Below, in pieces: positions 13,260-51,263 of a DNA stretch of 64,000 nt. Under the pieces are notes generated by a model. That model saw only the letters and a list, made by a program, of their open reading frames with translations. It searched no databases and was not told the origin of the DNA. Origin of the DNA: Marinilabilia salmonicolor (GTDB lineage Bacteria > Bacteroidota > Bacteroidia > Bacteroidales > Marinilabiliaceae); assembly GCF_003003035.1 (NCBI RefSeq), contig NZ_PVTS01000013.1:62001-126000 (forward strand), read 5' to 3'. Position numbers and translations under genes: made by a program. Within the stretch, counting starts at the first letter, position 1; every line of letters starts with the position of its first letter.

Positions 13260-13433
13260 CCTGGTTTATTCATGATTTTTCGTTATGAGATGGTTAAATA
13301 TCAATAAATTCTGGTAACCGCAGATAAAATTGAGGTAGGAAATAGTGAACTATTTTCAAATCAATTTTATTGAGGACGCCTGAATTTAGAAGGTAGTTGA
13401 ACATCGCAATAGATAATTAATGAATAATCCAGG
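13260..13433 (+). repeat. 174-bp full-length palindromic element, family 2, copy 1
   Basis: The ends are CCTGGTTTATTCAT and ATGAATAATCCAGG, inverted. The two halves can be aligned as an imperfect inverted repeat over most of the length, meeting at GAAATAGTGAACTATTTTC. The other copy is at 32992-33165, exactly the same length. Paired bases differ in a compensated way between the two copies. Its right end is 67 bases upstream of the coiled-coil lipoprotein gene, so it lies in that gene's promoter or leader. The rest of 12885-13259 has no gene. Confidence 0.75.
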
Positions 13434-13500
13434 TTCGAAACGTGAATTATAAATAATTCAGAATTGTTTTATCTGTGTTTAATTTTAATCAATTAGTTAA

Positions 13501-15489
13501 ATGAAAAATTTAAAACTCCTAACCGGCACGGCTGTTTTGGCCGGACTACTACTTACTACCGGATGTGTAAAGAACGAAGAGGCTGACGGTGTAAAGGCTC
13601 TTAGACAAGCCCAGGCAGCTAAATTGAATGCCGAAGCTACCGCAACAACGCTGGCGGCTGAAGCTGAAGCTGCTTACAGAAACGCTGAAGCTGCGGTTAA
13701 GCAAGCCGAAGTAGCCATTAAAGAGGCGAAAGCCCGGGCAAAAGAAATACAAAATGCTTACAGTGAGGCTAACAATGCAATTTTAATTGCCAATGCTCAG
13801 ATCGCTGCCGACCTGAATCAGGCTCAAACTCAGGCTTCCATTGACAAGGCTCTTATTACTGCTGAAAAAGAACTGGCTGAAGCCCAGAAAGAACTGGAGA
13901 TTGCGCTTTCACAGTATGAATCCGAGATTGCTGCTGATGTTGCAAAAAACAAGAATCTTTCTGCTTATCTGACCGCCTACAAAAAAGCTATTTCAGAGGT
14001 TAATTCTTTGAGACAGGAGATTGTAGGACTTCAGAGAAATCTTGCAACAGCTCAATTGTATTTCCTCAATAATGACCTTACCGATTCTGGAAATCTTGCT
14101 GCTGCCAAAACCATTCAGCAGGAATATCTAAATATTAGACTTGGATATCTTCAGGGATGGGTAGAGCGTTATGAGGCTGTAATGGGCGACCTGGCAACCA
14201 TTGCTGACGAACTGGTAGATGTGAAAGAAGATATCTACAATCTTAAATCTCAGATTGATGACAAAGAGGTGGAGCAGGAGCTCGCCGAACAAGCCCGCGA
14301 AGTTGCGCTTGAAGAGTACCAGACTGCTTACGATGCATGGGAAGAAGTTGTGAATAAGGATTTATTGATTGCAACTTTTTCTGATGAAGAAAATGTAAAT
14401 CAGGAAATCATTCCTTACAGTTATCTTACCAATGTGGTTGACCCTGGCACTATTGAAGAAACCGGAGCGGGTGATTCTGATTTTGATACTGAAGGGATTT
14501 ATTTCCGGTCATACAAATTTTACAATGATTGGATTGAAAGTTTTGAAACCGATATTACTAAAAATGAGGAGCTGATTTCCGAAAAAGAAGATGTGGTTGC
14601 TCTGCTGGAAGAGCTTCATGAGCAATATGCATCCCAACTGGCCGCTCTTGAACAGGATGTTATTACAGAATATGAAAAGATCGAACCTCTGTTGCATGAG
14701 GTAAATGTGGTTGAAATTGCCAATCAGGCAGAACAAACAACTGCAAGTCAGGATGCATTGGATGATGCATTGGATGCTCTTGAGGCTGTTACGGACAATC
14801 CCGGTGATCCGATGAACTCTACTTCAGGAACTTTCTACGATGCATATACCGCTTACGATGAATTTATTCAGGATGTCAATGATTCTGACATTGATCTTTC
14901 TTTCCTCTATATGGCCAACTATTCGGAAAGTCCTTTAGGTTCTGATGAGGAAGTAGTAAATATCCCTTATTTTATTGGAACATTTAATGCAGAAATTGAA
15001 AGTTGGGAGGCAGAAATCGATGGTTGGGATGATGATATGAATGAGTATGAAGCCAATCTGGAGATTGTTGAGGGTTATGTTGCTTATCTCGAAGGTCTTC
15101 AGTCAGGTAACCTGGCAGCTCTGGAAACTGCTTACCAGGATGCCAAAGCTGCATTTTATGCTGCAAGGGTTACCTATGATGAAGTTTCTTCCGAACTGGC
15201 CACTCTTAAAGCTGAGTTAGATCGTGCTGAAGATTATGAGTCGGTTCTTGAAGGAAATGGGGAGGATATTTCTGATGATCTTTATGAAAATGTAACCGGT
15301 CTTAAAGAGCAGATTGTTCAGACAGAGGCTGATATTGCTGAAATTGACAATGACTTTGCAAACTGGGAGGCTTTGATTGCCAGTCTGGAAGCAAAAATTG
15401 CCCAGAAACAAACCGAACTTGATATCTATCAGGCAGAAGCTGATCATTACAAAGAGTTAATTGACGCAGAATTAGGTACAGAGGAGTAG
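13501..15489 (+). CDS. Large coiled-coil outer-surface or periplasmic lipoprotein
   Basis: This is a 662-residue lipoprotein (lipobox LTTGC, Cys22) of unrecognised family. Residues 30-135 are an Ala/Glu/Lys heptad coil. Further coils cover about 155-280, 355-430 and 500-660. Between them are two less helical stretches (about 290-350 and 440-500). Both hold a SDEE...IPY segment followed by a Trp-containing helix and a coil ending in LAALE, suggesting an internal duplication. No catalytic motif is seen. A structural spacer, a tether between envelope layers or a surface filament is plausible (inference). It is followed 94 bases later by an outer-membrane barrel gene, with a weak hairpin between them, and preceded by a family 2 palindrome. 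Confidence 0.85.
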   Translation: MKNLKLLTGTAVLAGLLLTTGCVKNEEADGVKALRQAQAAKLNAEATATTLAAEAEAAYRNAEAAVKQAEVAIKEAKARAKEIQNAYSEANNAILIANAQIAADLNQAQTQASIDKALITAEKELAEAQKELEIALSQYESEIAADVAKNKNLSAYLTAYKKAISEVNSLRQEIVGLQRNLATAQLYFLNNDLTDSGNLAAAKTIQQEYLNIRLGYLQGWVERYEAVMGDLATIADELVDVKEDIYNLKSQIDDKEVEQELAEQAREVALEEYQTAYDAWEEVVNKDLLIATFSDEENVNQEIIPYSYLTNVVDPGTIEETGAGDSDFDTEGIYFRSYKFYNDWIESFETDITKNEELISEKEDVVALLEELHEQYASQLAALEQDVITEYEKIEPLLHEVNVVEIANQAEQTTASQDALDDALDALEAVTDNPGDPMNSTSGTFYDAYTAYDEFIQDVNDSDIDLSFLYMANYSESPLGSDEEVVNIPYFIGTFNAEIESWEAEIDGWDDDMNEYEANLEIVEGYVAYLEGLQSGNLAALETAYQDAKAAFYAARVTYDEVSSELATLKAELDRAEDYESVLEGNGEDISDDLYENVTGLKEQIVQTEADIAEIDNDFANWEALIASLEAKIAQKQTELDIYQAEADHYKELIDAELGTEE

Positions 15490-15512
15490 TTTAGGAGGAA
15501 TAAATATTCTCC

Positions 15513-15545
15513 GGCCGGGGAGTTCCGTTTCCCGGCCACTTTTCA
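15513..15545 (+). terminator. Hairpin between the coiled-coil lipoprotein and barrel genes
   Basis: The stem GGCCGGG/CCCGGCC is followed by a short ACTTTTC tract. The T-run is weak, so it may attenuate transcription and not end it, leaving some read-through into the barrel gene. Confidence 0.4.
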
Positions 15546-15583
15546 AAAATTACTATAATCCTTTAAAAAAAAGCCTGATTCTT

Positions 15584-16423
15584 ATGAGAAAGATAAAAAT
15601 GTCGTGGACACTGATGGTGACTATGTTCCTTCTTGCGGGAGGAGTAATGGCACAATCATTTGGTCCGCAGGCAGGCGATAAATCGATGGCCCTACGTTTT
15701 GGACGTGCTGTTTCGTTTGGTGATGTACAATACGCTGAGGTAAACAGTGCTGTTAATGAGTCTGAATATTGGAATTTTGATGGAGTTGCACCTTCTTTAA
15801 GTGCCCCATCATCATCCGGTTTTTCCACTCAATACAGCATGACCAATATGATTGGCGTAGAAGCCAAGTATTTTATCACCTCACAGATTGCTGCCCGTTT
15901 TAGTGGTGCCGGAGCTGTAATGAGTTCTCCCGCAGCCGATGCAGTAATGGTGACCGGGGAGGCTTCCGTGGACGGAGAGCCTGCATATCCCGGAACATAC
16001 GTTCCCGGCTGGGAGATGATGGAGAGCCGCACCACCAAACAATTTTATGTGGATTTGGGTGCCGATTATTATTTCGCCAGTAACTATTCGAGAGTGAACC
16101 CTTACGGGGGTGTGCAAGTCAATGCTACCTACGGTCAGATGGAAATTGCTGATGGCTTCCGCGGTGTTGATGATAATGGAGAGGTGATTCCCACTCATGA
16201 TACTCGTCGTGGAGAGGCTTATGGCCTTGGCGGTAGTGTTGTCGGGGGTATCGACTACTATCTGTCCGAAGGAATGTTCCTTGGGATTGAGATTAAAGCG
16301 TTTAATTATATGTACAATGCAAAACGTGTGTATCATCAGAGTGGTATGGAAGCACAGGATGCAGCTACACATAATACTGCAATCTTTTCACAACCGGTAA
16401 TTAAACTTGGTTTCCGGTTCTGA
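15584..16423 (+). CDS. Outer-membrane beta-barrel protein
   Basis: This is a 279-residue protein with a signal peptide ending GGVMAQS (about residue 24). Its alternating strands end in VIKLGFRF, a C-terminal aromatic residue typical of outer-membrane barrels. Strand-like segments include QFYVDLGADYYFA, YGGVQVNATYGQMEI and GMFLGIEIKAFNY. The size suggests eight to ten strands, as in OmpA/OmpW-like barrels. The ligand is unknown. It follows the coiled-coil lipoprotein gene and may be co-expressed with it. A strong terminator lies after the stop. Confidence 0.85.
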   Translation: MRKIKMSWTLMVTMFLLAGGVMAQSFGPQAGDKSMALRFGRAVSFGDVQYAEVNSAVNESEYWNFDGVAPSLSAPSSSGFSTQYSMTNMIGVEAKYFITSQIAARFSGAGAVMSSPAADAVMVTGEASVDGEPAYPGTYVPGWEMMESRTTKQFYVDLGADYYFASNYSRVNPYGGVQVNATYGQMEIADGFRGVDDNGEVIPTHDTRRGEAYGLGGSVVGGIDYYLSEGMFLGIEIKAFNYMYNAKRVYHQSGMEAQDAATHNTAIFSQPVIKLGFRF

Positions 16424-16446
16424 TTAGGAAAATGAATTATTGTTAT

Positions 16447-16480
16447 TAAAAAAGGCGACCCGACGGGCCGCCTTTTTTTG
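16447..16480 (+). terminator. Intrinsic terminator after the barrel gene
   Basis: The stem GGCGACCC/GGGCCGCC with loop GAC is followed by TTTTTTT and preceded by AAAAAAA, so it can act in both directions between the barrel gene and tex. Confidence 0.85.
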
Positions 16481-16481
16481 C

Positions 16482-16543
16482 TGTATAGACGATTCATGTA
16501 TAGACGATTCATGTATAGACGATTCATGAATCGTCTCTACATG
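16482..16543. repeat. Three 15-bp direct repeats plus one inverted copy over the tex stop codon
   Basis: TGTATAGACGATTCA occurs three times in a row (16482, 16497, 16512) and is followed by its inverse TGAATCGTCTCTACA. The last two can form a near-perfect 15-bp stem. The tex stop codon (16537-16539) lies inside the inverted copy. GTAGAGACG-type palindromes are common dispersed repeats in several bacterial groups. Confidence 0.7.
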
Positions 16544-18660
16544 TTTTTCATAGATAGCTGAATCCTTTTGCGGGCTACATCCACCTCCAGTACGCGCACT
16601 TCCACATGCTGATGTAACTTTACAACGTCATTGGGGTTTGAAATGAAACGGTCGGCCAATTGGGAAATGTGTACCAGTCCGTCCTGTTTGACGCCTACAT
16701 CCACAAAGGCACCAAAATTGGTGATGTTGGTGACAATTCCGGGGACTGTCATGCCGGGTTTCAAATCTTCCATGCTGTGGACGTCTTTGGAGAATTCAAA
16801 AACTTTAATGGTTTGACGCGGATCGCGACCCGGCTTTTCCAGTTCCTGCATGATATCCTTCAATGTTGGTAATCCGGTATCATTCGTCACATAACGATTC
16901 AGATCTATTTTTTCTCTAAGCGACTTGTCTTTAATCAGGTCTGTTATCTCACATCCCAGGTCTGCAGCCATTTGTTTAACGATGGGGTATGATTCGGGGT
17001 GCACTGCCGTGCTGTCCAGCGGGTTTTTGGCATCCGATATTCGCAGGAATCCTGCCGCCTGTTCGAAAGCTTTGGCTCCAAGGCGCGGAACTTTCTTCAA
17101 TGCTGCACGGCTGGCAAACGGGCCGTTTTCGTTTCGATAGGAAACAATGTTTTTGGCGAGTGCAGGCCCCAGACCGGAGATGTAGGTGAGCAGGTGATGG
17201 CTTGCGGTGTTGAGGTTGACACCCACGCTGTTCACTGACGACTCAACCACTCTGTCAAGGGCATCTTTTAGCTGATGTTGATCCACATCATGTTGGTATT
17301 GACCTACCCCGATGGATTTGGGGTCTATTTTCACCAGCTCTGCCAACGGGTCCATCAATCGACGGCCGATGGATACTGCCCCTCGGACAGTGACATCATA
17401 CTGAGGAAACTCATCGCGTGCCACTTTGCTGGCACTGTAAACAGATGCTCCGTCTTCACTGACCACAAAAACCTGTACGTCACGATTGAACTTTGTTTTA
17501 CGTACCAGATCCTCCGTCTCACGGGATGCTGTTCCGTTTCCAATGGCAATGGCTTCAATTTTGTAGGCATCTACCAGTGAATCAAGTTTCTTCATGGCTT
17601 TTCCGGTCTCTTTTTGCGGAGGATGGGGGTAAATGGCTTCATTGTGCAGCAATTCGCCCTGAGCATCCAGACATACCACTTTACAACCGGTGCGGTAGCC
17701 CGGGTCGATGGCCAGCACCCGTTTCTGACCAAGTGGCGGAGCCAGTAAAAGCTGTCTCAGGTTATCACTGAATACCCGGATGGCTTCTTCGTCGGCTTTT
17801 TCCTTGAAGAGTGCCATGGTCTCGTTTTCCAGCGAGGGGGCCAGTAATCTTTTGTAAGCATCTTCGGTGGCCATTTCCACCTGATCTGATGTGTCATTGT
17901 TTCCTTTCACAAAGAGGCGTTTGAGCCGGGGCAAAACATCTTCAGCGTCTGGGGCAGCTCCCAGTTTCAGAAATCCTTCTTTTTCTCCACGCTGCATAGC
18001 CAGGAAACGGTGGGAAGGACAGCGTTTAAGGGGTTCGTCCCATTCAAAATAATCACGGTATTTGGCTCCTTCCTCTTCTTTCCCTTTTACGAGTCGGGCA
18101 GATATTACCGAGTGATGCTGAAATCTGTTGCGGACAATTTCACGAGCAGTCTGGTTTTCATTGATCCATTCCGCAACAATGTCGCGGGCCCCTTGCAATG
18201 CAGCCTCAGTGTCCGTGACTTCATCGGTCAGAAAGGAAGCGGCCCGGGATTCCACATCCCGTTCATGCTGTTTCATGATGATTTTTGCCAGAGGTTCGAG
18301 CCCCAGCTCCCGGGCCTTGGTGGCACGTGTTTTCCTCTTGGGCTTGTAGGGGAGGTAGATGTCCTCCAGTTCTGTACTGTCGTAACAGTTTTCTATTCTT
18401 GATTTTAATTCATCGGTCAGCAATTCCTGTTCTTCGATGGTCTTCAGGATGGTTGCTTTTCTCTTTTCCAGTTCCTGAAGTTTGTCGTAGGCCTCCTTGA
18501 TGTTGCCAATGGCTACTTCATCCAGACTTCCCGTGCGTTCTTTCCGGTATCGGCTGATAAATGGAATGGTAGCTCCTTCGTCAAGGAGTTCGATGGTGTT
18601 GTTGACCTGGGTTGCCGAAATGCCTGTCTTTTCAGCTATGAGTTTTGGAATGGTTTGCAT
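16537..18660 (-). CDS. tex: Tex family RNA-binding transcription accessory protein
   Basis: Tex is a cytoplasmic nucleic-acid-binding protein, related to eukaryotic Spt6, that affects transcription. The 707-residue product has the family's domain order. An N-terminal helical region carries ATIPFISRYRKERTGSLDE. A YqgF/RNase H-like domain starts with VLAIDPGYRTGCK near residue 325. Helix-hairpin-helix motifs lie in the YISGLGPALAKNIVSYR region (about 490-560). An S1 RNA-binding domain at the C-terminus (about 637-707) carries FGAFVDVGVKQDGLVHISQL. It has the start ATG at 18660 and a TAAGTTTG promoter box about 120 bases upstream. The stop codon lies in a dispersed repeat. Confidence 0.97.
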   Translation of the reverse strand: MQTIPKLIAEKTGISATQVNNTIELLDEGATIPFISRYRKERTGSLDEVAIGNIKEAYDKLQELEKRKATILKTIEEQELLTDELKSRIENCYDSTELEDIYLPYKPKRKTRATKARELGLEPLAKIIMKQHERDVESRAASFLTDEVTDTEAALQGARDIVAEWINENQTAREIVRNRFQHHSVISARLVKGKEEEGAKYRDYFEWDEPLKRCPSHRFLAMQRGEKEGFLKLGAAPDAEDVLPRLKRLFVKGNNDTSDQVEMATEDAYKRLLAPSLENETMALFKEKADEEAIRVFSDNLRQLLLAPPLGQKRVLAIDPGYRTGCKVVCLDAQGELLHNEAIYPHPPQKETGKAMKKLDSLVDAYKIEAIAIGNGTASRETEDLVRKTKFNRDVQVFVVSEDGASVYSASKVARDEFPQYDVTVRGAVSIGRRLMDPLAELVKIDPKSIGVGQYQHDVDQHQLKDALDRVVESSVNSVGVNLNTASHHLLTYISGLGPALAKNIVSYRNENGPFASRAALKKVPRLGAKAFEQAAGFLRISDAKNPLDSTAVHPESYPIVKQMAADLGCEITDLIKDKSLREKIDLNRYVTNDTGLPTLKDIMQELEKPGRDPRQTIKVFEFSKDVHSMEDLKPGMTVPGIVTNITNFGAFVDVGVKQDGLVHISQLADRFISNPNDVVKLHQHVEVRVLEVDVARKRIQLSMKNM

Positions 18661-18779
18661 AGTGAATGGTTTTATATATTTGTTTCGTTGTTACCTGTCT
18701 CTGCACCACCCTGATGCTGAAAAGCTGCATAAACAGGGGACTATCCCGGCTCACACAGCCTTTTGGTTTCTCAATGGTG

Positions 18780-18787
18780 CAAACTTA
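18780..18787 (-). promoter_or_regulatory. -7 promoter box of tex
   Basis: The minus strand reads TAAGTTTG (TAnnTTTG), with a TTGC about 16 bases further upstream. The leader would be about 115 bases. Confidence 0.4.
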
Positions 18788-18835
18788 ACCTGCATTTTTG
18801 CAATGCGATGGGAAAAGATGCTTTATGAAGTGACA

Positions 18836-20071
18836 CTATTTTTTGTCCTTCCTGTATTTGCCTGACGGTTTTCCTCCCTTTTTGTTGAAACGCTTATACG
18901 GTTTCTTTCCTTTGTTGTATGATTTTGGGTTGTATTCCGGGCCTTCTCCAACCTCTTCAGGCAAAGGAATTTTTATGATGGTGGTTTCAATCAGTTCTTC
19001 AATTTTTTGAAAATCCTGTTGATCTTTTTCGGTGATGAATGTCAGTGCCACTCCTGTGGAGGAGGCTCTGGCGGTACGTCCTACCCGGTGTACGTAATCT
19101 TCTGCATCATTTGGCACATCAAAGTTTATGACCAGATCGATTCCTTCCACATCAATTCCTCTGGCAATGATGTCGGTGGCCACAAGGATTTGCACGTTGC
19201 GGTTCTTGAATTCGCGCATTACTTCAGTCCGGTCTTTTTGTTCCAGATCTGAATGAATTGCTTTTGCGGGGAATCCGTTTCGTTGCAATGATTGCTGAAT
19301 CTCCTTTACTTTCTGTTTCGTGGAGGAGAAGATTACAATGCTCTTCAGGTCTTTCCCCTTCAGCAGACTGTTAATCAACGGCATTTTCTGGGTCTCATAA
19401 GTCATATAAGCTCCCTGAAGCACTCCCTCTGCCGGTTTTGACAAGGCGATGTTGACCTCTTCATATTCCGATAGAAGTTCCCGTGCCATGTCTCTGATTT
19501 TTTTCGGCATGGTAGCAGAAAACATGAGTGTTTGTCGCTCTTTGGGCAAAAAGGAGACAATTTGCATGATGTCTTCATAAAAACCCATATCGAGCATACG
19601 ATCTGCTTCGTCGAGAATGAGGTGTTTCAACGTATCCATCTTCACATAGCCCATGCTCAGATGCTGAATAAGGCGACCCGGAGTAGCCACGATTACGTTG
19701 GCGCCGGTAGTTAGTGCATTTTTCTGGGCATTCCATAAGCCTGCATCATTACCTCCATATACGGCAATGGATGTGATGGGCAGAAAATATCCAAAACCCT
19801 CCATTTGCTGGTCAATTTGCATGGCCAGCTCTCTGGTTGGCACCAAAACTAAAGTATTGAGTCCCTCAGAATTGGATTGCACCTGTCGATCAAGCACCGG
19901 GAGCAGGTAAGCAGCAGTTTTTCCGGTACCGGTTTGTGCACAGGCAATCATATCTTTCCCGTTCATAATGGGAGGAATGGTAGCCTCCTGAACAGGGGTT
20001 GCTTTTTCAAATCTCATGGCTTCCAGTCCGTCAATTACTTCCTGTGAGAAGCCAAATTCTGTAAATTTCAA
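18836..20071 (-). CDS. DEAD-box RNA helicase (RhlE-like)
   Basis: This is a 411-residue ATP-dependent RNA helicase for ribosome assembly or mRNA turnover. Motif Q (FEKATPVQEATIPPI), motif I (AQTGTGKT, near residue 52), DEADRMLD (near 153), SAT and HRVGRTAR (near 329) are all present. The basic tail PKSYNKGKKPYKRFNKKGGKPSGKYRKDKK is spread over the last residues and probably binds RNA. There is no ATG at the N-terminus. The TTG at 20071 gives MKFTEFGFS, matching how relatives begin. Another TTG at 20104 would overlap the upstream gene. It is last in a cluster with the RlmI-like methyltransferase and an exonuclease. Confidence 0.93.
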   Translation of the reverse strand: MKFTEFGFSQEVIDGLEAMRFEKATPVQEATIPPIMNGKDMIACAQTGTGKTAAYLLPVLDRQVQSNSEGLNTLVLVPTRELAMQIDQQMEGFGYFLPITSIAVYGGNDAGLWNAQKNALTTGANVIVATPGRLIQHLSMGYVKMDTLKHLILDEADRMLDMGFYEDIMQIVSFLPKERQTLMFSATMPKKIRDMARELLSEYEEVNIALSKPAEGVLQGAYMTYETQKMPLINSLLKGKDLKSIVIFSSTKQKVKEIQQSLQRNGFPAKAIHSDLEQKDRTEVMREFKNRNVQILVATDIIARGIDVEGIDLVINFDVPNDAEDYVHRVGRTARASSTGVALTFITEKDQQDFQKIEELIETTIIKIPLPEEVGEGPEYNPKSYNKGKKPYKRFNKKGGKPSGKYRKDKK

Positions 20072-20093
20072 AATCTTTTCTTTTAAGTTACTG

Positions 20094-21278: not shown

Positions 21279-21292
21279 ATAAAGGTTGGCTG

Positions 21293-21913: not shown

Positions 21914-21962
21914 TCAGTTAAAATGTTACGGTTGGCCCGCTTGTTTTTGCCGGCCCTATTTT

Positions 21963-22112
21963 GAGTCTGTCTATAAACTAAGCGTTTTTCAGTGTTTGAA
22001 CTAGAAAGCTCAAATTCAAGGCGTTTGAAAAATCTAAGCCGCAGAATACTAGTGTATTTGAGGATTTAGATTTTGAGCAACAACGCAGAAGTTGGACTTT
22101 ATAGACATACAC
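21963..22112 (+). repeat. MITE-like element, family 1, copy D (internally deleted)
   Basis: The 150-bp element has the same ends and flanking interior as copies B and C, but lacks about 47 bp of the middle (the stretch around the TTTTTTGAACAAAAAACC palindrome). The right end abuts the DUF5063 stop codon with no bases between. It would be transcribed if the cluster is one operon. Confidence 0.7.
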
Positions 22113-22760: not shown

Positions 22761-22859
22761 AATTGGTGCAAAATTAGTGATAAATATTGATAATGTTGTG
22801 TTTAATCGGGGTAAAACCCTTTTTTTATGGTCTGTCTTTAATACATGGCAACAGCTGTA

Positions 22860-24767: not shown

Positions 24768-24827
24768 ACGGACAAAATTAATCAAATAATCTATCCAACA
24801 GGAACTGCAAAACAAAAGAGAATTTCT

Positions 24828-24835
24828 TACCTTTG
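24828..24835 (+). promoter_or_regulatory. -7 promoter box of guaB
   Basis: TACCTTTG matches TAnnTTTG exactly, 34 bases before the guaB ATG, in the 102-bp region shared with the divergent recQ gene. Confidence 0.55.
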
Positions 24836-24851
24836 CCAAAATTTTTTTTAA

Positions 24852-26339
<1,488 letters not shown>

Positions 26340-26370
26340 TCTGAAGTCTTTCATAGGAAAGTATTATACA

Positions 26371-26410
26371 AACCCGGAATAAACCTTCGCGTTATTCCGG
26401 GTTCTTTTTT
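26371..26410 (+). terminator. Intrinsic terminator of guaB
   Basis: The stem AACCCGGAATAA/TTATTCCGGGTT with an ACCTTCGCG loop is followed by CTTTTTT. The stem is 12 bp and perfect. Confidence 0.9.
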
Positions 26411-26580
26411 GTATTTTTGAGGTTTGTTTATATTGTTGTTTGTCAACCACCAAACATTCCATTATTTTTGTGTGATTAATAAACTGCGGAAAAACATTAC
26501 ACCCCTTCATCTTTTATCGGTTAGGGGTAGGATCAAATGTCCTGAAGTTTTTAAAGCACCGATTACAAAATAATATTCGG

Positions 26581-27441
26581 ATGAAGTTTAGAGTACTTAC
26601 AATATTGATTTTATTTACCGGTTTTTCATTTTTGTTGCTAACCTGCCGGGATTCTTCGCCCGAAAATGTTGGAAACCCGGTTGTTCGTGTTGGGGATGAG
26701 GTGTTGACAGATAGTGATTTGAGGGAGGTGCTCCCTACTGATGTAAGCAAAGAAGACAGTGCTGCGCTTGCAGATGAGTATGTCAACAGATGGGTGCGAA
26801 GTAAACTGTTTCTCCGACAGGCCGAATCGAATCTGACAGAAGAAGAGAAAGATGTAAGTCAGATGCTGGATGAATACAGGACTTCGTTGCTGGTAAATAA
26901 GTATCAGCAGAAAATGCTTGAACAGAAGTATTCTCCATTGCTGAAGCATGAAGAGATTGAAAAATATTACAATGAGATGCAGGACAACTTTAAACTGCAG
27001 GAGAATATTGTCAAAGGACTAATGTTGAAAGTTCCGTTGGATGCTCCGGGACAGAACGATGTTCGCCGGTGGTGCAGGACTGCCGACCCGGAGAGTTTGG
27101 TTGAGCTGGAAAATTACAGCTTACAAAATGCACGTATGTATAAGATGTTTTTGGATACCTGGGTGCCTTTTCAACGAATAAATGCCAATTTGCCCGAGCC
27201 CGTTAGAAATGAGGAACGGTTTTTGAGATACAATCGTTATTATGAAACCACCGATGAGCAATTTCGGTATTTCTTTTTAGTGACAGATTATGAATTTATC
27301 GGAAGTATTGCCCCTATTAGTTTTGTGGAGGAGAGAATTAAAGCCATACTTTTGAATAAAAAACGTGGAGCATTCATTAAGAGTCTCGAAAAAGAGCTCT
27401 ATAATGAAGCACTTCAAAAGAAAACTATAAATTTTTATTAA
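26581..27441 (+). CDS. SurA/PpiC-like chaperone lipoprotein lacking a PPIase domain
   Basis: This is a 286-residue lipoprotein (lipobox LLLTC, Cys22). After the signal comes VVRVGDEVLTDSDLREVLP, the opening strand and helix of SurA/PpiD-type N-terminal domains. Long helices follow (about 60-130) with no recognisable parvulin PPIase core. It resembles the first of the tandem SurA-like proteins found beside surA in Bacteroidota, and probably acts as a periplasmic holdase for outer-membrane proteins (inference). The surA gene begins 47 bases downstream on the same strand. Confidence 0.8.
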   Translation: MKFRVLTILILFTGFSFLLLTCRDSSPENVGNPVVRVGDEVLTDSDLREVLPTDVSKEDSAALADEYVNRWVRSKLFLRQAESNLTEEEKDVSQMLDEYRTSLLVNKYQQKMLEQKYSPLLKHEEIEKYYNEMQDNFKLQENIVKGLMLKVPLDAPGQNDVRRWCRTADPESLVELENYSLQNARMYKMFLDTWVPFQRINANLPEPVRNEERFLRYNRYYETTDEQFRYFFLVTDYEFIGSIAPISFVEERIKAILLNKKRGAFIKSLEKELYNEALQKKTINFY

Positions 27442-27488
27442 TATTCTTTTGGCCCCAATTGCCCGGGCTGAATGTTCTTTCTTTTAAA

Positions 27489-28868
27489 ATGAAAAAACTT
27501 TTTCAAATGCAGATAAATATTCATCGCGTCAGACTTCCTTTTTTGCTTATTCTGATTTTCTCATCATTATTGGCTCAAGGGCAAAAAAATGTGATAGATC
27601 AGGTTGTTGCCGTTGTGGGTGATGAGCCTGTACTCAGGTCAGATATCGAGTTTCAGCATCAGCAGGCTCTAATGGAAGGGGTTGACTTTCCCGGTGATAT
27701 GAAATGTCACATTCTGGAGCAAATGATGGTTCAGAAGCTTCTGTTGGAGCAGGCTAAGATTGACAGTGTGGAGGTGAGTGAGAATCAGGTCCTGATGACG
27801 GTGGATCGTCAAATCAATGAGTTTATCAATCGTGCGGGATCGCGTGAAAAACTTGAGGAGTGGTTGAATAAGTCTATTCTTCGCATTAAGGAAGAGCAGC
27901 GTGAGCTGGTTCGCAATCAAATGCTTACACAGCAGATGAGGTCTCAGATTACCAAAGAAATTAATGTAACTCCAATGGAGATTCGTCGGTTTTTCCGGGA
28001 ATCATCCGAAGACAGTCTTCCACGCATGCCCGCTCAGTTTGAGTACCAAAAAATTGCTATTACACCGAAAATAAGTCAGGAGGAGATTGACAGGGTAAAG
28101 GGGCGTTTGCGTGATTTTCAGCGCCAGGTGCGTGAAGGGCGTGATTTTGCCACACTGGCTGTTTTGTACTCTGAAGATCCCAATAGTGCTGCTCGCGGAG
28201 GTGAACTGGGCCTTACTCCGAGAGCCAATTTGGTTCCTGAGTTCTCGCAGGTGGCTTTCAATTTAAGAGACAAAAATAAAGTTTCCAAGATTGTGGAGAC
28301 TGAGTTTGGTTTCCATATCATGCAATTGGTGGAGCGACAGGGAGACCGTATTAATGTGCGTCACATTTTGCTCAAGCCCAAGCCGTCGGCAGATGCTATT
28401 GAGGAGGCCAAAGAGGTGGCCGATTCTCTGGTTACTTTGATTCGGGCAGACAGCATATCCTTCGAGGATGCAGCTTTGCGATTCTCCATGGATAAAGATA
28501 CACGGGCCAGCGGAGGGACTGTCATTAATCCTCAGAGTCAGTCCACCAAATTTGAACTTCAGCAAATCCCTCCCACGATAGCGCGGGTTATTGAAAATAT
28601 GGATGAAGGTGCTGTATCCAATCCTTTTCTTATGAAAGATCAGCGATTGGGAACCGATCAATATACCATTGTTCGGCTACAGAAAAAGACCCCTCCGCAT
28701 CGTGCCAATATGGTAGATGATTATCAGACTATTAAGCGAATGCTGGAGAACAAAAAACAGGAGGAAACGTTTAACGATTGGATTAAGAGAAAACAGGAGG
28801 AAACTTATATCTCAATTTCCGGTGATTGGAGAAATTGTGATTTTGAATTTGAGGGCTGGATTAAATAG
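27489..28868 (+). CDS. surA: Periplasmic chaperone/peptidylprolyl isomerase SurA
   Basis: SurA escorts unfolded outer-membrane proteins through the periplasm. The 459-residue product has a signal peptide (LLILIFSSLLAQG) and a SurA N domain (VIDQVVAVVGDEPVLRSDIE onward). Two parvulin domains follow. The first has FATLAVLYSEDPNSAARGGELG (about 210-235). The second has VRHILLKPKPSADA and FSMDKDTRASGGTV. The ATG at 27489 is preferred over an upstream TTG at 27459, because the signal peptide then begins MKKLFQ. The stop codon TAG overlaps the edge of MITE-like copy E. Confidence 0.95.
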   Translation: MKKLFQMQINIHRVRLPFLLILIFSSLLAQGQKNVIDQVVAVVGDEPVLRSDIEFQHQQALMEGVDFPGDMKCHILEQMMVQKLLLEQAKIDSVEVSENQVLMTVDRQINEFINRAGSREKLEEWLNKSILRIKEEQRELVRNQMLTQQMRSQITKEINVTPMEIRRFFRESSEDSLPRMPAQFEYQKIAITPKISQEEIDRVKGRLRDFQRQVREGRDFATLAVLYSEDPNSAARGGELGLTPRANLVPEFSQVAFNLRDKNKVSKIVETEFGFHIMQLVERQGDRINVRHILLKPKPSADAIEEAKEVADSLVTLIRADSISFEDAALRFSMDKDTRASGGTVINPQSQSTKFELQQIPPTIARVIENMDEGAVSNPFLMKDQRLGTDQYTIVRLQKKTPPHRANMVDDYQTIKRMLENKKQEETFNDWIKRKQEETYISISGDWRNCDFEFEGWIK

Positions 28869-29030
28869 AGTCCGTCTGCAAAGTCGGGAAAAATGGTAAT
28901 TTGAGTTGTGTCGGTTCAGAAAGTTGCGTTTGCAAGGCTTGGCATTCCCGAAAATGCGGAGTTTACCTGAGTAAATGAGTACTTTTCGGGAATGGGGTAA
29001 CGAAGCAAAGGTGACTTTATGGACAGATAC
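28868..29030 (+). repeat. MITE-like element, family 1, copy E
   Basis: The 163-bp element belongs to the interior type of copies A and F (TTTACCTGAGTAAATGAGTACTTT palindrome, split across 28968-28993). Its ends are decayed (GAGTCCGTCTGCAAA and TTTATGGACAGATAC). Its first base is the last base of the surA stop codon, and the following lipoprotein gene begins 17 bases after its right end. Confidence 0.7.
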
Positions 29031-29047
29031 AAAATAGGCTGGCAATT

Positions 29048-30001
29048 ATGAGGCAGGTAACATTGATTTGGGGTGGTGTGGTTTTTATGATGCTTTTGCT
29101 GATGAGCGGATGCGTCAGGGAAGCGTATAACATCTCCTGGAAAGGTGTTGTGGTAGATGAAACGACAGGAAAACCTGTGAAACATGCGCGTATTCTTGCC
29201 TCATCTTCCTATCAGGCTAATATTGACGAAACGGAAGCTCTGAAAAACTATACGCTGAGTGATGAGTATGGTCGGTTTCGGATGTCATTTCGTCGCGGAT
29301 TTGGAATTACAGTGCGGACCAGCGCTTCCGGATTTCTGAGTGGCCTCGATTACAAAGTTGTTAAAAAACCCGATATCAGTGACACTATTTTTTTGTCACC
29401 TTATCCGTTCAATGCCAGTCTGGTCGTTAGGAAAATGGATGAGGGGGCTTTTTCGGCTTCCATTCCATTTATTCGAGATAAGCATATTGTTGCAGGAAGC
29501 GGATCGGATGCAGGCAGTTTAATGAAGTGGGGCTTCGATTTTTTGGAAGGCACCAATACATTGAATCTCGACAGCGCTGATATATGGATTGAAGTAAATC
29601 CGAAAAACGGGAAGATGGTTTTGAATGCCTCGCCTAAAGGAGGTGTTTTCCCTGTTTTGCAGACAGAAAACAGTGACTTTATAACCAGTGTTACCAAGGC
29701 TCCCGAATCGGGATATCTGAAGAGTTACGTGTTGACAGGGGAAGAAGCCGGTTTTTTTGTGCTTTGCCGAAACGGGGTAAATGTGGCTAAGATGATTCCC
29801 GAAGATAAAATATGTATTCTCTCCTATGAGCAGCCGGATGGAAGTAAGGTTAAGGAGACAGGAATTCGTTTCGATTATTTGTTCCAGCCTGATTTGCAAA
29901 ACCGTTTTTATTTTCCGGTTTCGGCATCTGCTGAAATGAGTGGACTTCCGGAGGATAGAAGTCCCGTTGATCTTGAATTTCAGGAATCAGGTTTGGACTA
30001 A
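29048..30001 (+). CDS. Lipoprotein with carboxypeptidase-regulatory-like domain
   Basis: This is a 317-residue lipoprotein (lipobox LMSGC, Cys22). Residues about 30-115 form a transthyretin-like carboxypeptidase regulatory domain (WKGVVVDETTGKPVKHARILASS and the DEYGRFRMSF turn, both seen as separate segments). The rest is beta-rich with no recognised domain. The function is unknown. An envelope role fits its neighbours: surA upstream and an OstA-like gene 157 bases downstream. The spacing to surA is filled by MITE copy E. Confidence 0.78.
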   Translation: MRQVTLIWGGVVFMMLLLMSGCVREAYNISWKGVVVDETTGKPVKHARILASSSYQANIDETEALKNYTLSDEYGRFRMSFRRGFGITVRTSASGFLSGLDYKVVKKPDISDTIFLSPYPFNASLVVRKMDEGAFSASIPFIRDKHIVAGSGSDAGSLMKWGFDFLEGTNTLNLDSADIWIEVNPKNGKMVLNASPKGGVFPVLQTENSDFITSVTKAPESGYLKSYVLTGEEAGFFVLCRNGVNVAKMIPEDKICILSYEQPDGSKVKETGIRFDYLFQPDLQNRFYFPVSASAEMSGLPEDRSPVDLEFQESGLD

Positions 30002-30083
30002 TGGGAGTCGGCGGTTAGGCTTTAGGGGAATTAGACGAAATGTGCAGTTTTTTTCTGGAATATAGGCATAAGTTTCTGTATGT

Positions 30084-30158
30084 GATAGCGAAGCGGTTCT
30101 GTTTTTTCTTGAGTTTTTTAAGTGGTTTTTTATCAGTTGGTTACGAAGTTTTAAACGA
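30084..30158 (+). promoter_or_regulatory. Shared leader module directly before the OstA-like gene
   Basis: This 75-bp stretch, from GATAGCGAAGCGGTT to TTTTAAACGA, ends exactly at the start codon. A close relative occupies the same position before the BtuG-like gene (53599-53672), and a third, cut by the window edge, starts at 63938. The common core is TTTTTATCAG, then TTA, then TTTTAAACGAATGA. Confidence 0.6.
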
Positions 30159-31739
30159 ATGAATTTTACCAAAATATTTTTTATATTCATTTTTGTCTTT
30201 ATCAGCATTCAGGAAGTCTTTCCCCAGGAGAGTCAGCGGGGAAACGGGACTATTTTAATTGAGTATGCAGATGTTTTGGAGGGGGCTGAAAAACGGTTGG
30301 GTAAAAATGTTCAGGCTCTTAAAGGAAATGTGAAAATGCGGCACCACAATACACGAATGTTCTGTGACAGTGCCATTATTTTTCGAGATTCCAATAAAGT
30401 TGAAGCTTTCGGGTCTATTCATATCATTCAGAATGATACCATTGATCTTTATGGAGATAAACTTTATTACGATGGTGATGAGGAGGTAGCGAAAGTTCGC
30501 GATAACGTTCGTTTGGTAAACCGAAATGTGGTTCTGACTACCAATCATCTGGATTACGACCGGCGTGACGATGTGGCCTATTATTTTAACGGAGGCCGCA
30601 TTGTTGATGAAAGCAATGAGTTGGTCAGCAGACTCGGATTTTATTATCCACGCATTGGGGAAGTAAATTTTAAAGATAGTGTTGTGCTGACCAATCCGGA
30701 TTATCTGATGTACAGTGACACCCTGAAATATTTTACCAGGACGGAGGTAGTGGAGATTCTGGGGCCTACCGATATTGTCAGTGATCAGAATACCATTTAT
30801 TCCGAGTTGGGTTTTTATGATACTAAAAAGGATGAGGCCCGTCTTTTGAAGAATAATTACATAGATGGGGGGGAGCAAACTTTACGGGGTGATACCATCT
30901 ATTATGACCGAAAAAACGGGCTTGGGGAGGTTTTTTCCTCTATGGAGCTGGAGGATACTGCCAACAATGTTATAATAACCGGGAATTACGGTTTCTACAA
31001 TGAGCTAAGTGAGCGTGCCATGGCCACCCGGCGTGCTGTACTTAAGCAGGTTTATGGTGCAGACACCCTTTTTCTTCATGCCGACACCCTTCGCGCCGAT
31101 CCGGTGGAGGATGATCCTGAGAATAAAATTGTCCGGGCATTTCATCATGTGCAATTTTACAGGACTGATTTACAGGGACGCTGTGATTCCATGGTGTACG
31201 ATTTTCGGGACAGTACCAATACCTTTTACCACGATCCGGTTATTTGGGCTCAGGGGAATCAAATGACTGCCGGAACCATTAAGCTGTTCACCAAAGAACG
31301 TGCCCTCTATAAAGCAGAGATGATTGACAACGCCTTTTTGATAGCTCCCGAGGATACCATGCATTACAATCAGATCAAAGGTAAGTTGATGACGGGCTAT
31401 TTTAGAGAAAATCAGTTGTATAAGATTGATGTCGATGGAAACGGTCAGACGGTCTATTATCCTAAAGACCGGGAGTATGTGATAGGGGTCAACCGGGCTG
31501 AGAGCAGCAATCTTACTATTTTTCTGGAAGATCGGAAGGTGAATACCATTGTTTTGCGAACTCAGCCGTCAGGAAATATGAATCCTCCTTTGGTTTTAGC
31601 TCCCGAGGATACCAAACTTGATGGTTTTGTCTGGCTCGAAGAGTATCGGCCCAAAAGCTATGAATCCATCTTTAACTTCCGGAAAATGGAGGTGGATGTT
31701 AAGCGTGCTGATTACAGCGGATATCAATTTGACCAGTAA
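30159..31739 (+). CDS. OstA-like (LptA/LptD N-domain) envelope protein
   Basis: This is a 526-residue secreted protein (signal peptide to about VFPQES) built of repeated beta-jellyroll strands of the OstA/LptA type. Examples are VQALKGNVKMRHHNTRMFCDSA, VEAFGSIHIIQNDTIDLYGDKL and the AKVRDNVRLVNRNVVLTTNHL region. Proteins of this fold carry lipopolysaccharide across the periplasm. In Bacteroidota this long OstA-like form is widespread and its exact role is less clear. No C-terminal barrel is present, so it is not LptD itself. It is last in the surA-lipoprotein-OstA group, followed by a terminator. Confidence 0.88.
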   Translation: MNFTKIFFIFIFVFISIQEVFPQESQRGNGTILIEYADVLEGAEKRLGKNVQALKGNVKMRHHNTRMFCDSAIIFRDSNKVEAFGSIHIIQNDTIDLYGDKLYYDGDEEVAKVRDNVRLVNRNVVLTTNHLDYDRRDDVAYYFNGGRIVDESNELVSRLGFYYPRIGEVNFKDSVVLTNPDYLMYSDTLKYFTRTEVVEILGPTDIVSDQNTIYSELGFYDTKKDEARLLKNNYIDGGEQTLRGDTIYYDRKNGLGEVFSSMELEDTANNVIITGNYGFYNELSERAMATRRAVLKQVYGADTLFLHADTLRADPVEDDPENKIVRAFHHVQFYRTDLQGRCDSMVYDFRDSTNTFYHDPVIWAQGNQMTAGTIKLFTKERALYKAEMIDNAFLIAPEDTMHYNQIKGKLMTGYFRENQLYKIDVDGNGQTVYYPKDREYVIGVNRAESSNLTIFLEDRKVNTIVLRTQPSGNMNPPLVLAPEDTKLDGFVWLEEYRPKSYESIFNFRKMEVDVKRADYSGYQFDQ

Positions 31740-31796
31740 TGCCGGTAAAAAAATGGCCTGTCATTGTTGTTGTAACAATTCAGGCCACCTGATATT

Positions 31797-31833
31797 GCAA
31801 GGGGTTCTATTGGAACCCCTTGTTTGTTTTTTA
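31797..31833 (+). terminator. Intrinsic terminator of the OstA-like gene
   Basis: The stem GCAAGGGGTTC/GAACCCCTTG with a TATTG loop is followed by TTTGTTTTTT. A second hairpin, TGGCCTG...CAGGCCA, lies just before it at 31754-31788. Both separate this gene from the convergent DUF2795 gene. Confidence 0.8.
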
Positions 31834-31851
31834 CACCTTCAGTTGCGGTAT

Positions 31852-32073
31852 TTAGTATTCATCTTCATTAAAGAAGAAGTCATCTTTGCTCGGATAATCC
31901 GGCCAGATATCTTCAATACTTTCATACACTTCACCTTCATCTTCAATTTCCTGAAGGTTTTCAATTACTTCAAGCGGCGCACCCGACCGGATGGCAAAGT
32001 CAATCAACTCATCTTTAGTGGCAGGCCACGGAGCATCCTCAAGTTTAGAAGCTAATTCAAGAGTCCAATACAT
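31852..32073 (-). CDS. DUF2795 family small protein
   Basis: This is a 73-residue acidic cytoplasmic protein matching the DUF2795 pattern: MYWTLELASKLEDAPWPATKDELIDFAIRSGAP over residues 1-33, then VIENLQEI. The aromatic-Pro start and the KDELI(D)YA-like helix are typical. The function is unknown; a small nucleic-acid or protein-binding helix bundle is possible. The C-terminus is strongly acidic (DDFFFNEDEY). It lies downstream of the adenosyltransferase gene on the same strand, with an 81-base gap. Confidence 0.85.
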   Translation of the reverse strand: MYWTLELASKLEDAPWPATKDELIDFAIRSGAPLEVIENLQEIEDEGEVYESIEDIWPDYPSKDDFFFNEDEY

Positions 32074-32154
32074 ATCGTTAACAGTTTAACTCTTAATAAT
32101 ATTTTGTTTTTTACTATTGCTGATTTTCTGCGAAATTAGAAAAAAAAAACAATC

Positions 32155-32715
32155 TTACAACTTTGGACTCCATGGAATTTCATTATTCTCGTAAAAATTG
32201 GATAAATATCTGGATAACACGAAGAAATAATCCGATAATCTGTTGAGATACCTTATGACCCATGTGGCTACCTCTGTCTTTTCCGCCATTTCATTGACTC
32301 TTCTTTCGGCTCTTCGACAGACGGTTCGTGCAATGTGTGCGTATGTTGCCGCCGGATGGCCTCCGGGAAGAATAAAATTTTTCAGCGGGGGAAGTGTCTC
32401 CTCCATTTTATCCATTTCTGTTTCCAGTAAGGTGATTTCAGCTTCGTCGGAGTTCAATCTGGATCTTAAATCCGATACGGCATCATCGGTGGCGAGGTAG
32501 GCGCCAATCATAAACAACTGATCCTGAATGTGTAGTATGACGTTGTTGATGGATTCTTCATTGGGCCAGGAGCGAATCATCCCGATGTTTGCATTGAGTT
32601 CATCCACCGTGCCGTATGCTTCCAGTCGGTAATGGTGTTTGTCCACTCGTGTTCCCCCAATCAAACTTGTCTTTCCTTTGTCTCCTGTTTTGGTATATAC
32701 CTGACTTTTTGCCAT
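32155..32715 (-). CDS. pduO: PduO-type cob(I)alamin adenosyltransferase
   Basis: The enzyme transfers the adenosyl group of ATP to cob(I)alamin, forming coenzyme B12. The 186-residue product carries the PduO-type motifs: VYTKTGDKGKTSLIGG (ATP-binding N-terminus), AYGTVDELNANIG, and FILPGGHPAAxxxHIARTVCRRAERR. The C-terminal helix RYLNRLSDYFFVLSRY is also conserved. It is separate from the B12 uptake genes at 51-55 kb, but completes the same pathway. A TATCTTTG promoter box lies 31 bases upstream of the start. Confidence 0.96.
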   Translation of the reverse strand: MAKSQVYTKTGDKGKTSLIGGTRVDKHHYRLEAYGTVDELNANIGMIRSWPNEESINNVILHIQDQLFMIGAYLATDDAVSDLRSRLNSDEAEITLLETEMDKMEETLPPLKNFILPGGHPAATYAHIARTVCRRAERRVNEMAEKTEVATWVIRYLNRLSDYFFVLSRYLSNFYENNEIPWSPKL

Positions 32716-32745
32716 TCGTTAATTGTTTTTGGTTTTGTAGGGTAA

Positions 32746-32753
32746 CAAAGATA
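32746..32753 (-). promoter_or_regulatory. -7 promoter box of the adenosyltransferase gene
   Basis: The minus strand reads TATCTTTG, an exact TAnnTTTG match, 31 bases before the ATG. Confidence 0.5.
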
Positions 32754-32798
32754 GGTCGATAAGGATTATTTCAATGGAGATTTTAACCTTATTTAGAA

Positions 32799-32984
32799 GT
32801 GTTTGTCCATAAAGTGCCATTTACTGCGTTACGCTTGCCCGAAAATTACTCATTTACTCAAGTAAACTGCGAATTTTCGGGCTTCGCAAGCCCCCGAAGA
32901 AAAATCGGGGCAGGCTTTGTAACTGGCACTTTCTTGACAAACACATGACCAGAAATAAATTTTGCTTAGTTTATGGACAGGCAC
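32799..32984 (-). repeat. MITE-like element, family 1, copy F (inverted)
   Basis: The 186-bp element lies in reverse orientation. On the minus strand it starts GTGCCTGTCCATAAAC and ends TTTATGGACAAACAC. The interior is of the A/E type, with a palindrome GAAAATTACTCATTTACTCA and its inverse, plus an extra stretch containing CCCCGATTTTTCTTCGGGGG. TA is present at one edge only. It lies 7 bases from the family 2 element. Confidence 0.75.
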
Positions 32985-32991
32985 TATTTAG

Positions 32992-33165
32992 CCTGCTTTA
33001 TTCATGAATTATCGTTATGAGATGTTCAAATATCAAGAAATACAATCACCCGCAGATAAAATGGATGCAGGAAATAATGGATTATTTTCAAATCCATTTT
33101 ATTGAGGACGGTTGGATTTTGCAGATATTTGGACATCGGAATAGATTATTTGTGAATAATGCAGG
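32992..33165 (+). repeat. 174-bp full-length palindromic element, family 2, copy 2
   Basis: The ends are CCTGCTTTATTCAT and GTGAATAATGCAGG. The core is GGAAATAATGGATTATTTTC, with flanking arms AAATGGA and TCCATTT. The arms GATGTTCAAATATC and GATATTTGGACATC also pair. Compared with copy 1, several base pairs are changed on both sides together. It sits in the gap 32716-33613, upstream of the cellobiose locus. Confidence 0.75.
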
Positions 33166-51240: not shown

Positions 51241-51263
51241 CCGGCAATAAGACTGGTTCGTAC

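Follow-up and report, generated by a model that had tools for sequence, protein, structure and literature searches.

Palindromic MITEs are usually understood as DNA whose ends are brought together, the stem-loop of their transcripts being regarded as a by-product. In the case of REP and IS200/IS605 elements, single-stranded DNA hairpins are needed in transposition or replication. The elements that invite the closest comparison here, ERIC, YPAL/RU-2 (about 168 bp) and NEMIS/Correia, are likewise 100–200 bp long, intergenic and multicopy, with transcripts predicted to form long stem-loops, as described in PMC2229807 and PMC10969869. For the piggyBac superfamily, PMC10813416 gives target duplications of TTAA, in a few cases TTAG and CTAA, and uses IS1380 as the outgroup. 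We rate the element from Marinilabilia salmonicolor analysed here as belonging to a known kind, the structured palindromic MITE; the titles and beginnings of abstracts listed for IS1380, palindromic MITEs, ERIC/NEMIS and structured RNAs do not name it.

Two copies in the window and the family they belong to

The window, i.e., the whole stretch of 64,000 nt that was analysed, harbors two 174-nt copies of the element, exactly where an earlier note on this DNA had placed them:

13260..13433, + strand (strand whose RNA fold is more stable): hairpin MITE, copy 1 (174 nt); covariance model 178.5 bits; RNA fold −55.4 (+) and −38.2 (−) kcal/mol
13260..13275, + strand: copy 1, left terminal inverted repeat CCTGGTTTATTCATGA (sequence)
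13418..13433, − strand: copy 1, right terminal inverted repeat CCTGGATTATTCATTA (sequence)
13280..13289, + strand: copy 1, conserved internal loop, left strand TCGTTATGAG (alignment)
13404..13413, + strand: copy 1, conserved internal loop, right strand TCGCAATAGA (alignment)
32992..33165, + strand: hairpin MITE, copy 2 (174 nt); covariance model 184.3 bits; RNA fold −69.2 (+) and −48.2 (−) kcal/mol
32988..32991, no strand: copy 2, left target duplication TTAG (sequence)
33166..33169, no strand: copy 2, right target duplication TTAG (sequence)
33012..33021, + strand: copy 2, conserved internal loop, left strand TCGTTATGAG (alignment)
33136..33145, + strand: copy 2, conserved internal loop, right strand TCGGAATAGA (alignment)

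Both copies fold end to end into one hairpin, as had been proposed before, with z values of −7.0 (copy 1) and −9.9 (copy 2), and none of 200 shuffles folded as well as the native sequence in either case. The copies differ from each other at 32 of 174 positions. Three compensated changes read earlier from the two sequences are all real (pair 5/170, GC-CG; 72/104, TA-GC; 86/91, GC-AT), and a fourth was found at pair 54/121 (GC-AT). With the registers used here, 20 pairs differ between the copies, 14 of them one-sidedly and 6 on both sides, the latter comprising four Watson-Crick to Watson-Crick exchanges, one change to G.T and one to a mismatch. The 4-mers flanking copy 1 (TAAA/TTCG) are mismatched, so that a target duplication is not visible there. 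The distance of 67 bp from copy 1 to a lipoprotein gene also holds, the ORF starting at 13501, downstream of the copy.

At least 50 element places, the two in the window included, were found in this genome, which GTDB assigns to the genus of Marinilabilia. The covariance model gave 86 matches, made up of 41 strong places, 9 weaker ones and 36 cases in which one of these palindromes was matched again on its reverse strand; this count is a lower bound, as the model scored 150 of 2480 first-look candidates. Among the fetched loci, 195 unique full-length places remained after exclusion of partial hits and hits close to locus ends, 149 of them exactly 174 nt long. In wider taxa, scans that used tighter filters and scored few candidates in each genome detected the element in 7 of 294 further genomes of the class and in 1 of 394 others in a phylum draw; two exact-pattern scans of viral contigs gave no match.

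The copies are almost always intergenic. Since the element's own stops would interrupt any ORF, open frames were read from 150 nt of flank on each side, and on this basis 7 of 189 element sites lay in a frame open on both sides, the corresponding counts in the same loci being 1843 of 2651 for random points and 2870 of 5336 for YTAR points. Relative to neighbour genes, 59 of 179 copies were in sense, 47 in antisense, 47 in divergent and 26 in convergent arrangement (crude ORF calls), and in 21 of these 179 the stop codon of a neighbouring ORF fell inside or at the duplicated target.

Covariation and strand specificity of the fold

In alignment A1 (38 sequences), double-sided changes affected 36 of 63 pairs and 228 cells, compared with 68.5 cells after shuffling, and 93.1% were paired versus at most 45.0% in the sliding control. 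Alignment A3 (18 diverged sequences), which was fitted to the structure of the model and therefore favours that structure, gave 58 of 63 pairs, 313 versus 105.0 cells, and 89.8% versus at most 46.0%. None of 500 shuffles of either alignment reached the observed value in any of the five measures. Random variation of further copies at paired sites, named in the earlier note as the outcome that would speak against a structured element, was not what we found; double-sided changes exceeded both controls in both alignments.

Within the fold, an internal loop formed by UCGUNAUGAG facing UCGKAAUAGA is nearly invariant among the 18 diverged sequences and persists where changes have reached the stems and even the ends of the transposon, while its two arms stay different from each other. 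The direct repeat TCGTNAT..TCGKAAT could alternatively be bound by a protein as double-stranded DNA. In an informal comparison by eye, no match of the element to the Bacteroidota promoter consensus was noticed.

To distinguish the strands, G.U and A.C variants were counted in pair registers chosen on Watson-Crick pairs alone, since RNAalifold pairs favour G.U by construction. The 149 copies of exactly 174 nt, minus 3 with less than 68% identity to the consensus, left 146 for a tree, on which changes from Watson-Crick pairs to G.U on the + strand numbered 244 and those to A.C 120, assuming one FastTree topology to be true; gene conversion among copies could blur these counts. On internal branches alone the ratio was 63 to 18 (p = 5e-7). 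The same two directions of change showed no such bias in unpaired columns (30 versus 38 on internal branches, 75 versus 89 at tips). Bare transitions gave a weaker contrast, with 275 versus 212 in paired and 105 versus 127 in unpaired columns (odds 1.57, p = 0.005). When variant types were sorted by the number of copies carrying them, G.U:A.C was 67:54, 53:30, 35:14 and 25:3 for types present in at least 1, 2, 4 and 8 copies, respectively. On the + strand, G.U pairs thus exceed A.C pairs both in how often they appear and in how often they spread, and variants that break pairing seldom multiply. The RNA fold of the + strand is the more stable one in 186 of 195 copies, which share ancestry, and among the diverged sequences in 14 of 16 with RNA and 16 of 16 with DNA parameters. 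Because G.U is preferred on the + strand, unpaired columns are unbiased and the + strand fold is more stable, we conclude that a folded single strand is under selection, most likely as RNA. The double-sided changes, together with the G.U bias of one strand, give good support to the claim of the earlier note that selection acts on the folded form.

Transposon features and the link to IS1380

The element ends in 16-bp terminal inverted repeats (CCTGSNTTATTCATRA) and is flanked by 4-bp target duplications of the YTAR type. Identical 4-bp flanks were present at 98 of 195 places, compared with an average of 31.8 and a maximum of 49 in 1000 shuffles, the commonest duplicated 4-mers being TTAG (44), TTAA (30) and CTAA (10). 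No copy carries a transposase of its own; the longest closed ORF within any of the 195 copies spans 48 aa, and ORFs of at least 40 aa occur in 64. Short, multicopy, and bounded by terminal inverted repeats and a target duplication of fixed length, the element is a non-autonomous MITE. The earlier note had posed structured element and transposon ends as an either/or; the structure stood, but the opposition did not, the element being both, with terminal inverted repeats, target duplications and IS1380-like ends.

Ends of the element's form were found on both sides of 4 of 30 examined loci with PF13701 (L193–L196), each at most one mismatch from CCTGNNTWATTCATNA. The 4-bp flanks are identical at L194 (CTAA), a broken IS1380 in this genome, at L195 (CTAT) and at L196 (TTAA), and read CTAA/CTAG at L193. 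Genome G160 has a MITE whose end reads CCCAAATTATGCATTAG (L244) beside an IS1380 piece ending TTAA-CCCAAATTATGCAATAG (L384). The element versions at L239 and L246 have ends resembling CCGTAAATAGACAGTAG, and no IS with such ends was seen. No derivation of the interior from IS1380 was seen: in a blastn search of a consensus against the 30 IS loci, similarity was confined to 17–19 bp at the ends and short chance matches, the true parent possibly lying outside these 30. As to other candidates for the parent IS, L037 appears to be a chance match and L051 is a decayed copy. Six candidates from end pairs 400–6000 bp apart were inspected, two of them for ORFs, and proved to be neighbouring MITE pairs or chance ends around host genes. 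PF13701 above cut-off was absent in 10 of 11 genomes of the same family that carry the element well (G001–G004, G009, G016, G024, G027, G031, G033) and in 6 of 8 carriers examined at greater distance; in this genome, its two matches both contain stops. For these reasons, the transposase acting today may be a different one, or may have been lost from draft assemblies.

Explanations for the selected fold and relation to known systems

We consider it probable that the element is an IS1380-mobilised MITE that, in contrast to a common deletion derivative, is selected for the fold of its + strand, which would fold as RNA and present the loop as a protein site. Judging from the common ends and target, an IS1380-type transposase most likely cuts and inserts the element in trans. 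Read-through transcription from neighbour genes would supply a + strand transcript, predicted to form one long irregular end-to-end hairpin, to whose nearly invariant internal loop a protein of the host or a transposase may bind. Recognition or processing of the hairpin in transcripts would then, as the most likely effect, decide on the tolerance and further spread of a copy. A function limited to the transcripts of neighbours fits badly, because the copies lack a clear orientation to neighbour genes. It is quite unlikely, in our estimation, that the + strand hairpin is a noncoding RNA needed for or guiding mobilisation by an IS1380/piggyBac-type transposase that recognises it via the UCGUNAUGAG/UCGKAAUAGA loop; if true, a DNA-only transposon would come with its own RNA cofactor.

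An ordinary palindromic MITE might show matched arms simply through template switching within the hairpin at replication, the fold itself being unselected. PMC8794818 describes such switching as able to create and maintain RNA hairpins and to yield compensatory changes; long palindromes should be a natural substrate, and double-sided Watson-Crick to Watson-Crick changes occur on terminal branches as well (18, versus 26 on internal ones). Yet template switching offers no reason why spreading is seen among G.U variants and hardly at all among A.C variants, or why the directional bias is confined to paired columns, and it should erase differences between the arms, whereas the internal loop differs between them and is nearly invariant across families. 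It may contribute to arm matching but leaves the G.U bias and the fixed loops unexplained, and we regard it as unlikely to be the whole account. A mobilisation as REP/REPIN-type element by RAYT (REP-associated tyrosine transposase) would suit a hairpin that is intergenic and multicopy, but is very improbable in view of the length of 174 nt versus the 20–40 bp given for REP in PMC3733652, the exact 4-bp target duplications with IS1380-like inverted repeats, and the CCTG ends in place of a GTAG or CGTC tag.

More consideration is due to two readings that retain selection on the fold. The selected form could be a single-stranded DNA hairpin of one strand, acting as substrate or intermediate in transposition or replication. 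DNA tolerates G.T as well, DNA parameters also favour the + strand, the fold takes in the whole element with its terminal repeats, and the lack of clear gene orientation is easier to reconcile with a role in mobility than with one in mRNA. The 4-bp target duplication and the IS1380-type ends, however, would suggest from knowledge of the family a DDE transposase acting on double strands, and we hold this reading to be doubtful. Equally tentative is a role as host mRNA hairpins, i.e., terminators, stabilisers or RNase III/E sites in 3' or 5' untranslated regions, which does not exclude the preferred explanation and overlaps with it in likelihood. The nearly exclusive intergenic location and the stop codons at duplicated targets are in line with this role, as are the precedents of NEMIS/Correia and ERIC in PMC10969869 and PMC2229807; moreover, the terminal-branch G.U:A.C bias amounts to 77:38 in sense copies, with none in antisense copies (34:35; Fisher p = 0.02). 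Sense copies are, however, not clearly more frequent than antisense ones, divergent copies are strongly biased as well (51:18), and the YTAR target alone explains insertion at stop codons. A simple read-through view does not predict a tip bias that is absent in antisense and strong in divergent copies.

Returning to the proposed IS1380-mobilised MITE with a selected + strand fold, its 16-bp ends CCTGNNTWATTCATNA (L193–L196) or CCCAAATTATGCAATAG (L380, L384) and YTAR or TTAA targets are shared with the IS1380 family (DDE_Tnp_1_4, PF13701), from which it differs in lacking a transposase gene and having nothing in common with the 30 IS loci beyond 17–19 bp of end. The piggyBac superfamily is a distant relative, with TTAA, TTAG and CTAA duplications as the common feature (PMC10813416). 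Like structured noncoding RNA families in Rfam, the element has covarying helices around a conserved internal loop, but it matches none of Rfam 15: at gathering scores the window contains only a cobalamin riboswitch, and permissive scans of copy 1 and seven loci gave only weak microRNA matches far below gathering. ERIC, YPAL/RU-2 and NEMIS/Correia have other ends and targets according to PMC2229807 and PMC10969869. That pairing-keeping variants of the + strand multiply and pairing-breaking ones hardly do suggests that the fold matters, not the ends alone; if confirmed, a non-coding fold would form part of a transposable element's fitness. Following the G.U:A.C ratio of variants with increasing copy number offers a means of distinguishing selection on a hairpin from maintenance of a palindrome by mutation. 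The nearly invariant internal loop and the strand-specific pairing bias are features found in the Marinilabilia element, with ERIC, YPAL/RU-2 and NEMIS compared by their descriptions.

The hairpin element and its distribution

Both hairpins to which the earlier note had drawn attention, copy 1 at 13260-13433 and copy 2 at 32992-33165, are 174 nt long and correctly placed, and each folds end to end (z of -7.0 and -9.9, respectively, versus dinucleotide shuffles). The two copies differ at 32 positions, and the three compensations described there are part of four Watson-Crick-to-Watson-Crick double changes between them. TTAG flanks copy 2 on either side; for copy 1, a target duplication is not visible in the flanks. 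Our crude ORF caller chose a 90-aa frame (12973-13245) as the upstream gene of copy 1, but its true neighbor is likely the gene at 11181-12884 on the opposite strand, so that copy 1 probably sits in a divergent gap. Elsewhere in the window, a cobalamin riboswitch (RF00174, 99.3 bits) lies at 51237-51513, and repeated TGTATAGACGATTCA units at 16482-16541 make a short inverted repeat. A second, unrelated repeat of ~153 bp (32798-32950) lies 41 bp before copy 2:

32799-32824 and 32919-32944, arms of the ~153-bp repeat, beginning GTGTTTGTCCATAAAGTGCC

It has at least 49 matches in the same genome (40 of 193 candidates scored), and several hairpin copies (contig:position C1:66868, C11:68774, C20:40226, C20:53220) lie within 110 bp of one.

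Searched at the DNA level, the M. salmonicolor genome gave 52 matches, namely 40 one-strand places (including copy 1 and one 84-nt piece), one short adjoining piece and 11 on the reverse strand, while the covariance model R1, built from 38 sequences, found at least 41 strong and at least 9 weaker places. Among 149 genomes including this one, similarity search gave a match in 19, including the four of the same genus as grouped in the genome collection; in a few of the 19 the matches span 21-32 nt at E 1e-4 or worse and may be chance. Model matches at E 1e-15, reverse-strand ones included, numbered 91 and 27 in the congeneric genomes G004 and G001, and 25, 16 and 15 in G003, G024 and G009. The exact end pattern recurred, among the matches listed, in Anaerophaga, Geofilum, Natronoflexus and Draconibacterium records, along with some that look like chance, and a class-level model search found much diverged versions in 7 of 294 other genomes. 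Two diverged copies (L121:1643-1817, L181:1271-1445) come from contigs of MAG OFTM167, which bears the label Verrucomicrobia, and reflect either horizontal transfer or misbinning. In the draft of Anaerophaga thermohalophila strain Valhall, many contigs (e.g., L115, L144, L156) start or stop at or inside the element, apparently because its near-identical copies broke the assembly. Versions of ~50 bp (L110:2949-2998, L191:3093-3144) retain the two ends and the TTAG beside them, with the whole interior gone, perhaps deletions at the hairpin; in others of ~222-267 bp (L122, L112, L183, L180, L160, L126) the halves fit the model and the hairpin tip is enlarged.

Strand-specific pairing and a conserved internal loop

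In the 38-sequence alignment A1, 36 of 63 pairs showed double-sided change (228 cells versus 68.5 in shuffles), with 93.1% of cells paired versus at most 45.0% when the partner was slid. In A3, comprising 18 diverged sequences, the figures were 58 of 63 pairs and 313 cells versus 105.0, with 89.8% paired (leaning the model's way, as A3 was fitted to it) versus at most 46.0%. Template switching is the leading alternative to selection: it would keep hairpin arms complementary with no selection on the fold. According to the excerpted text of PMC8794818, it can maintain such arms, and it may well have a share in the double changes, but it accounts for neither the conserved loops nor the G.U bias described below.

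A DNA palindrome alone should yield G.T and A.C equally often, these being one mismatch viewed from two strands. With pairing registers chosen by Watson-Crick matches only, a tree of 59 copies gave 105 changes from Watson-Crick to G.U and 34 to A.C on the + strand, and one of 146 copies 244 and 120 (63 versus 18 on internal branches). Arm-to-arm alignment without an RNA model, counting isolated in-helix mismatches as cells rather than events, gave G.T:A.C values of 124:9 in this genome (35 copies), 126:4 in other Marinilabiliaceae-type copies (n=40), 12:8 in Draconibacterium (8 copies), 20:4 in other distant copies (n=7) and 29:7 in far families (n=12). Mutational strand bias would appear at unpaired columns too; there, the same two change directions stood at 30:38 on internal branches and 75:89 at tips of the 146-copy tree, versus 80:59 and 195:153 at paired columns (paired-unpaired contrast p 0.005, a cruder measure), and in the 59-copy tree at 56:58 versus 128:73. 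Counted with a minimum of 1, 2, 4 and 8 copies, G.U:A.C variant types numbered 67:54, 53:30, 35:14 and 25:3, a climb which argues that new mutations are nearly neutral as between G.U and A.C and that + strand pair-breakers fail to multiply. Pairing is thus under strand-specific selection, and this bias, together with the covariation in A1 and A3, bears out the proposal that the folded form is selected. In agreement with this, mean predicted RNA fold energy was -58.1 kcal/mol for the + strand and -41.0 for the - strand (195 copies), the + strand being more stable in 186 of 195; for diverged sequences, oriented by the model and identically by their loop sequences, it was more stable in 14 of 16 with RNA and 16 of 16 with DNA parameters.

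The internal loop (TCGTNATGAG left, TCGKAATAGA right) is conserved: it stays nearly invariant although the surrounding stems are wholly rewritten, and is kept even in versions with different terminal repeats. Within the main family alone, loop columns are just slightly more conserved than the others (1.53 versus 1.41 bits); the contrast comes out when families are compared. The loop's two strands form a direct repeat of type TCGTNAT, and the arms do not grow alike. A protein may read this loop.

Ends, target sites and gene context

The element commonly starts with CCTGSNTTATTCATRA and ends with its complement. Matching 4-bp flanks, chiefly TTAG, TTAA and CTAA, occur at 98 of 195 unique full-length places (right flanks shuffled: mean 31.8, maximum 49). 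The IS1380 family was picked as candidate partner from the form of its ends, and then tested by fetching loci of relatives with its transposase domain (PF13701) and reading their ends. Four loci carry a transposase gene with ends at most one mismatch from CCTGNNTWATTCATNA on both sides; the 4-bp flanks are the same on either side in L194 (CTAA), L195 (CTAT) and L196 (TTAA), and differ in L193 (CTAA/CTAG). Three further IS1380 loci (L197, L200, L222) show one such end apiece. L194, 1704 bp on contig C12 of the M. salmonicolor genome, has two stops in the transposase frame. In genome G160, a distant element version (L244) starts CCCAAATTATGCATTAG, an IS1380 piece preceded by TTAA (L384) starts CCCAAATTATGCAATAG and a second piece (L381) CCCAGATTATGCAGTAG. 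The element is non-autonomous, with IS1380-like ends and target duplications, and an IS1380-type transposase probably mobilizes it. Counting against this link, PF13701 above cut-off was missing from 10 of 11 well-carrying genomes of the family and 6 of 8 further carriers, both matches in the M. salmonicolor genome hold stops, and no IS was seen with ends like those of element version L239 (CCGTAAATAGACAGTAG). The element interior matched none of 30 IS loci compared.

The element lies between genes, as 7 of 189 sites fall in a reading frame that stays open over 150 nt to either side, versus 70% of points drawn at random and 54% of those at YTAR (the 4-bp target) in the same loci. At 21 of 179 copies a neighboring ORF has its stop codon in or at the target duplication, which the YTAR target allows. 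The crude ORF caller (90 aa), which sometimes errs, classed 59 of 179 copies as sense, 47 as antisense, 47 as lying in divergent gaps and 26 in convergent ones. Terminal-branch G.U:A.C values were 77:38, 34:35, 51:18 and 12:6, respectively (sense versus antisense p 0.02; divergent versus antisense p 0.005), which hints that + strand transcription matters, a view that leaves the divergent-class bias unaccounted for. The selected molecule is probably RNA, which we clearly favor over single-stranded DNA.

Relation to known palindromic MITEs

The excerpted texts of PMC2229807 and PMC10969869 describe ERIC, NEMIS/Correia and YPAL as palindromic MITEs with transcripts that fold into long stem-loops, processed by RNase III for Correia/NEMIS and by RNase E for ERIC. 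The hairpin element is a further family of such MITEs: it has other ends, backed by a known IS family, and shows strand-specific covariation around a fixed loop, of which these excerpts report none for ERIC, NEMIS or YPAL, the comparison being by description alone.
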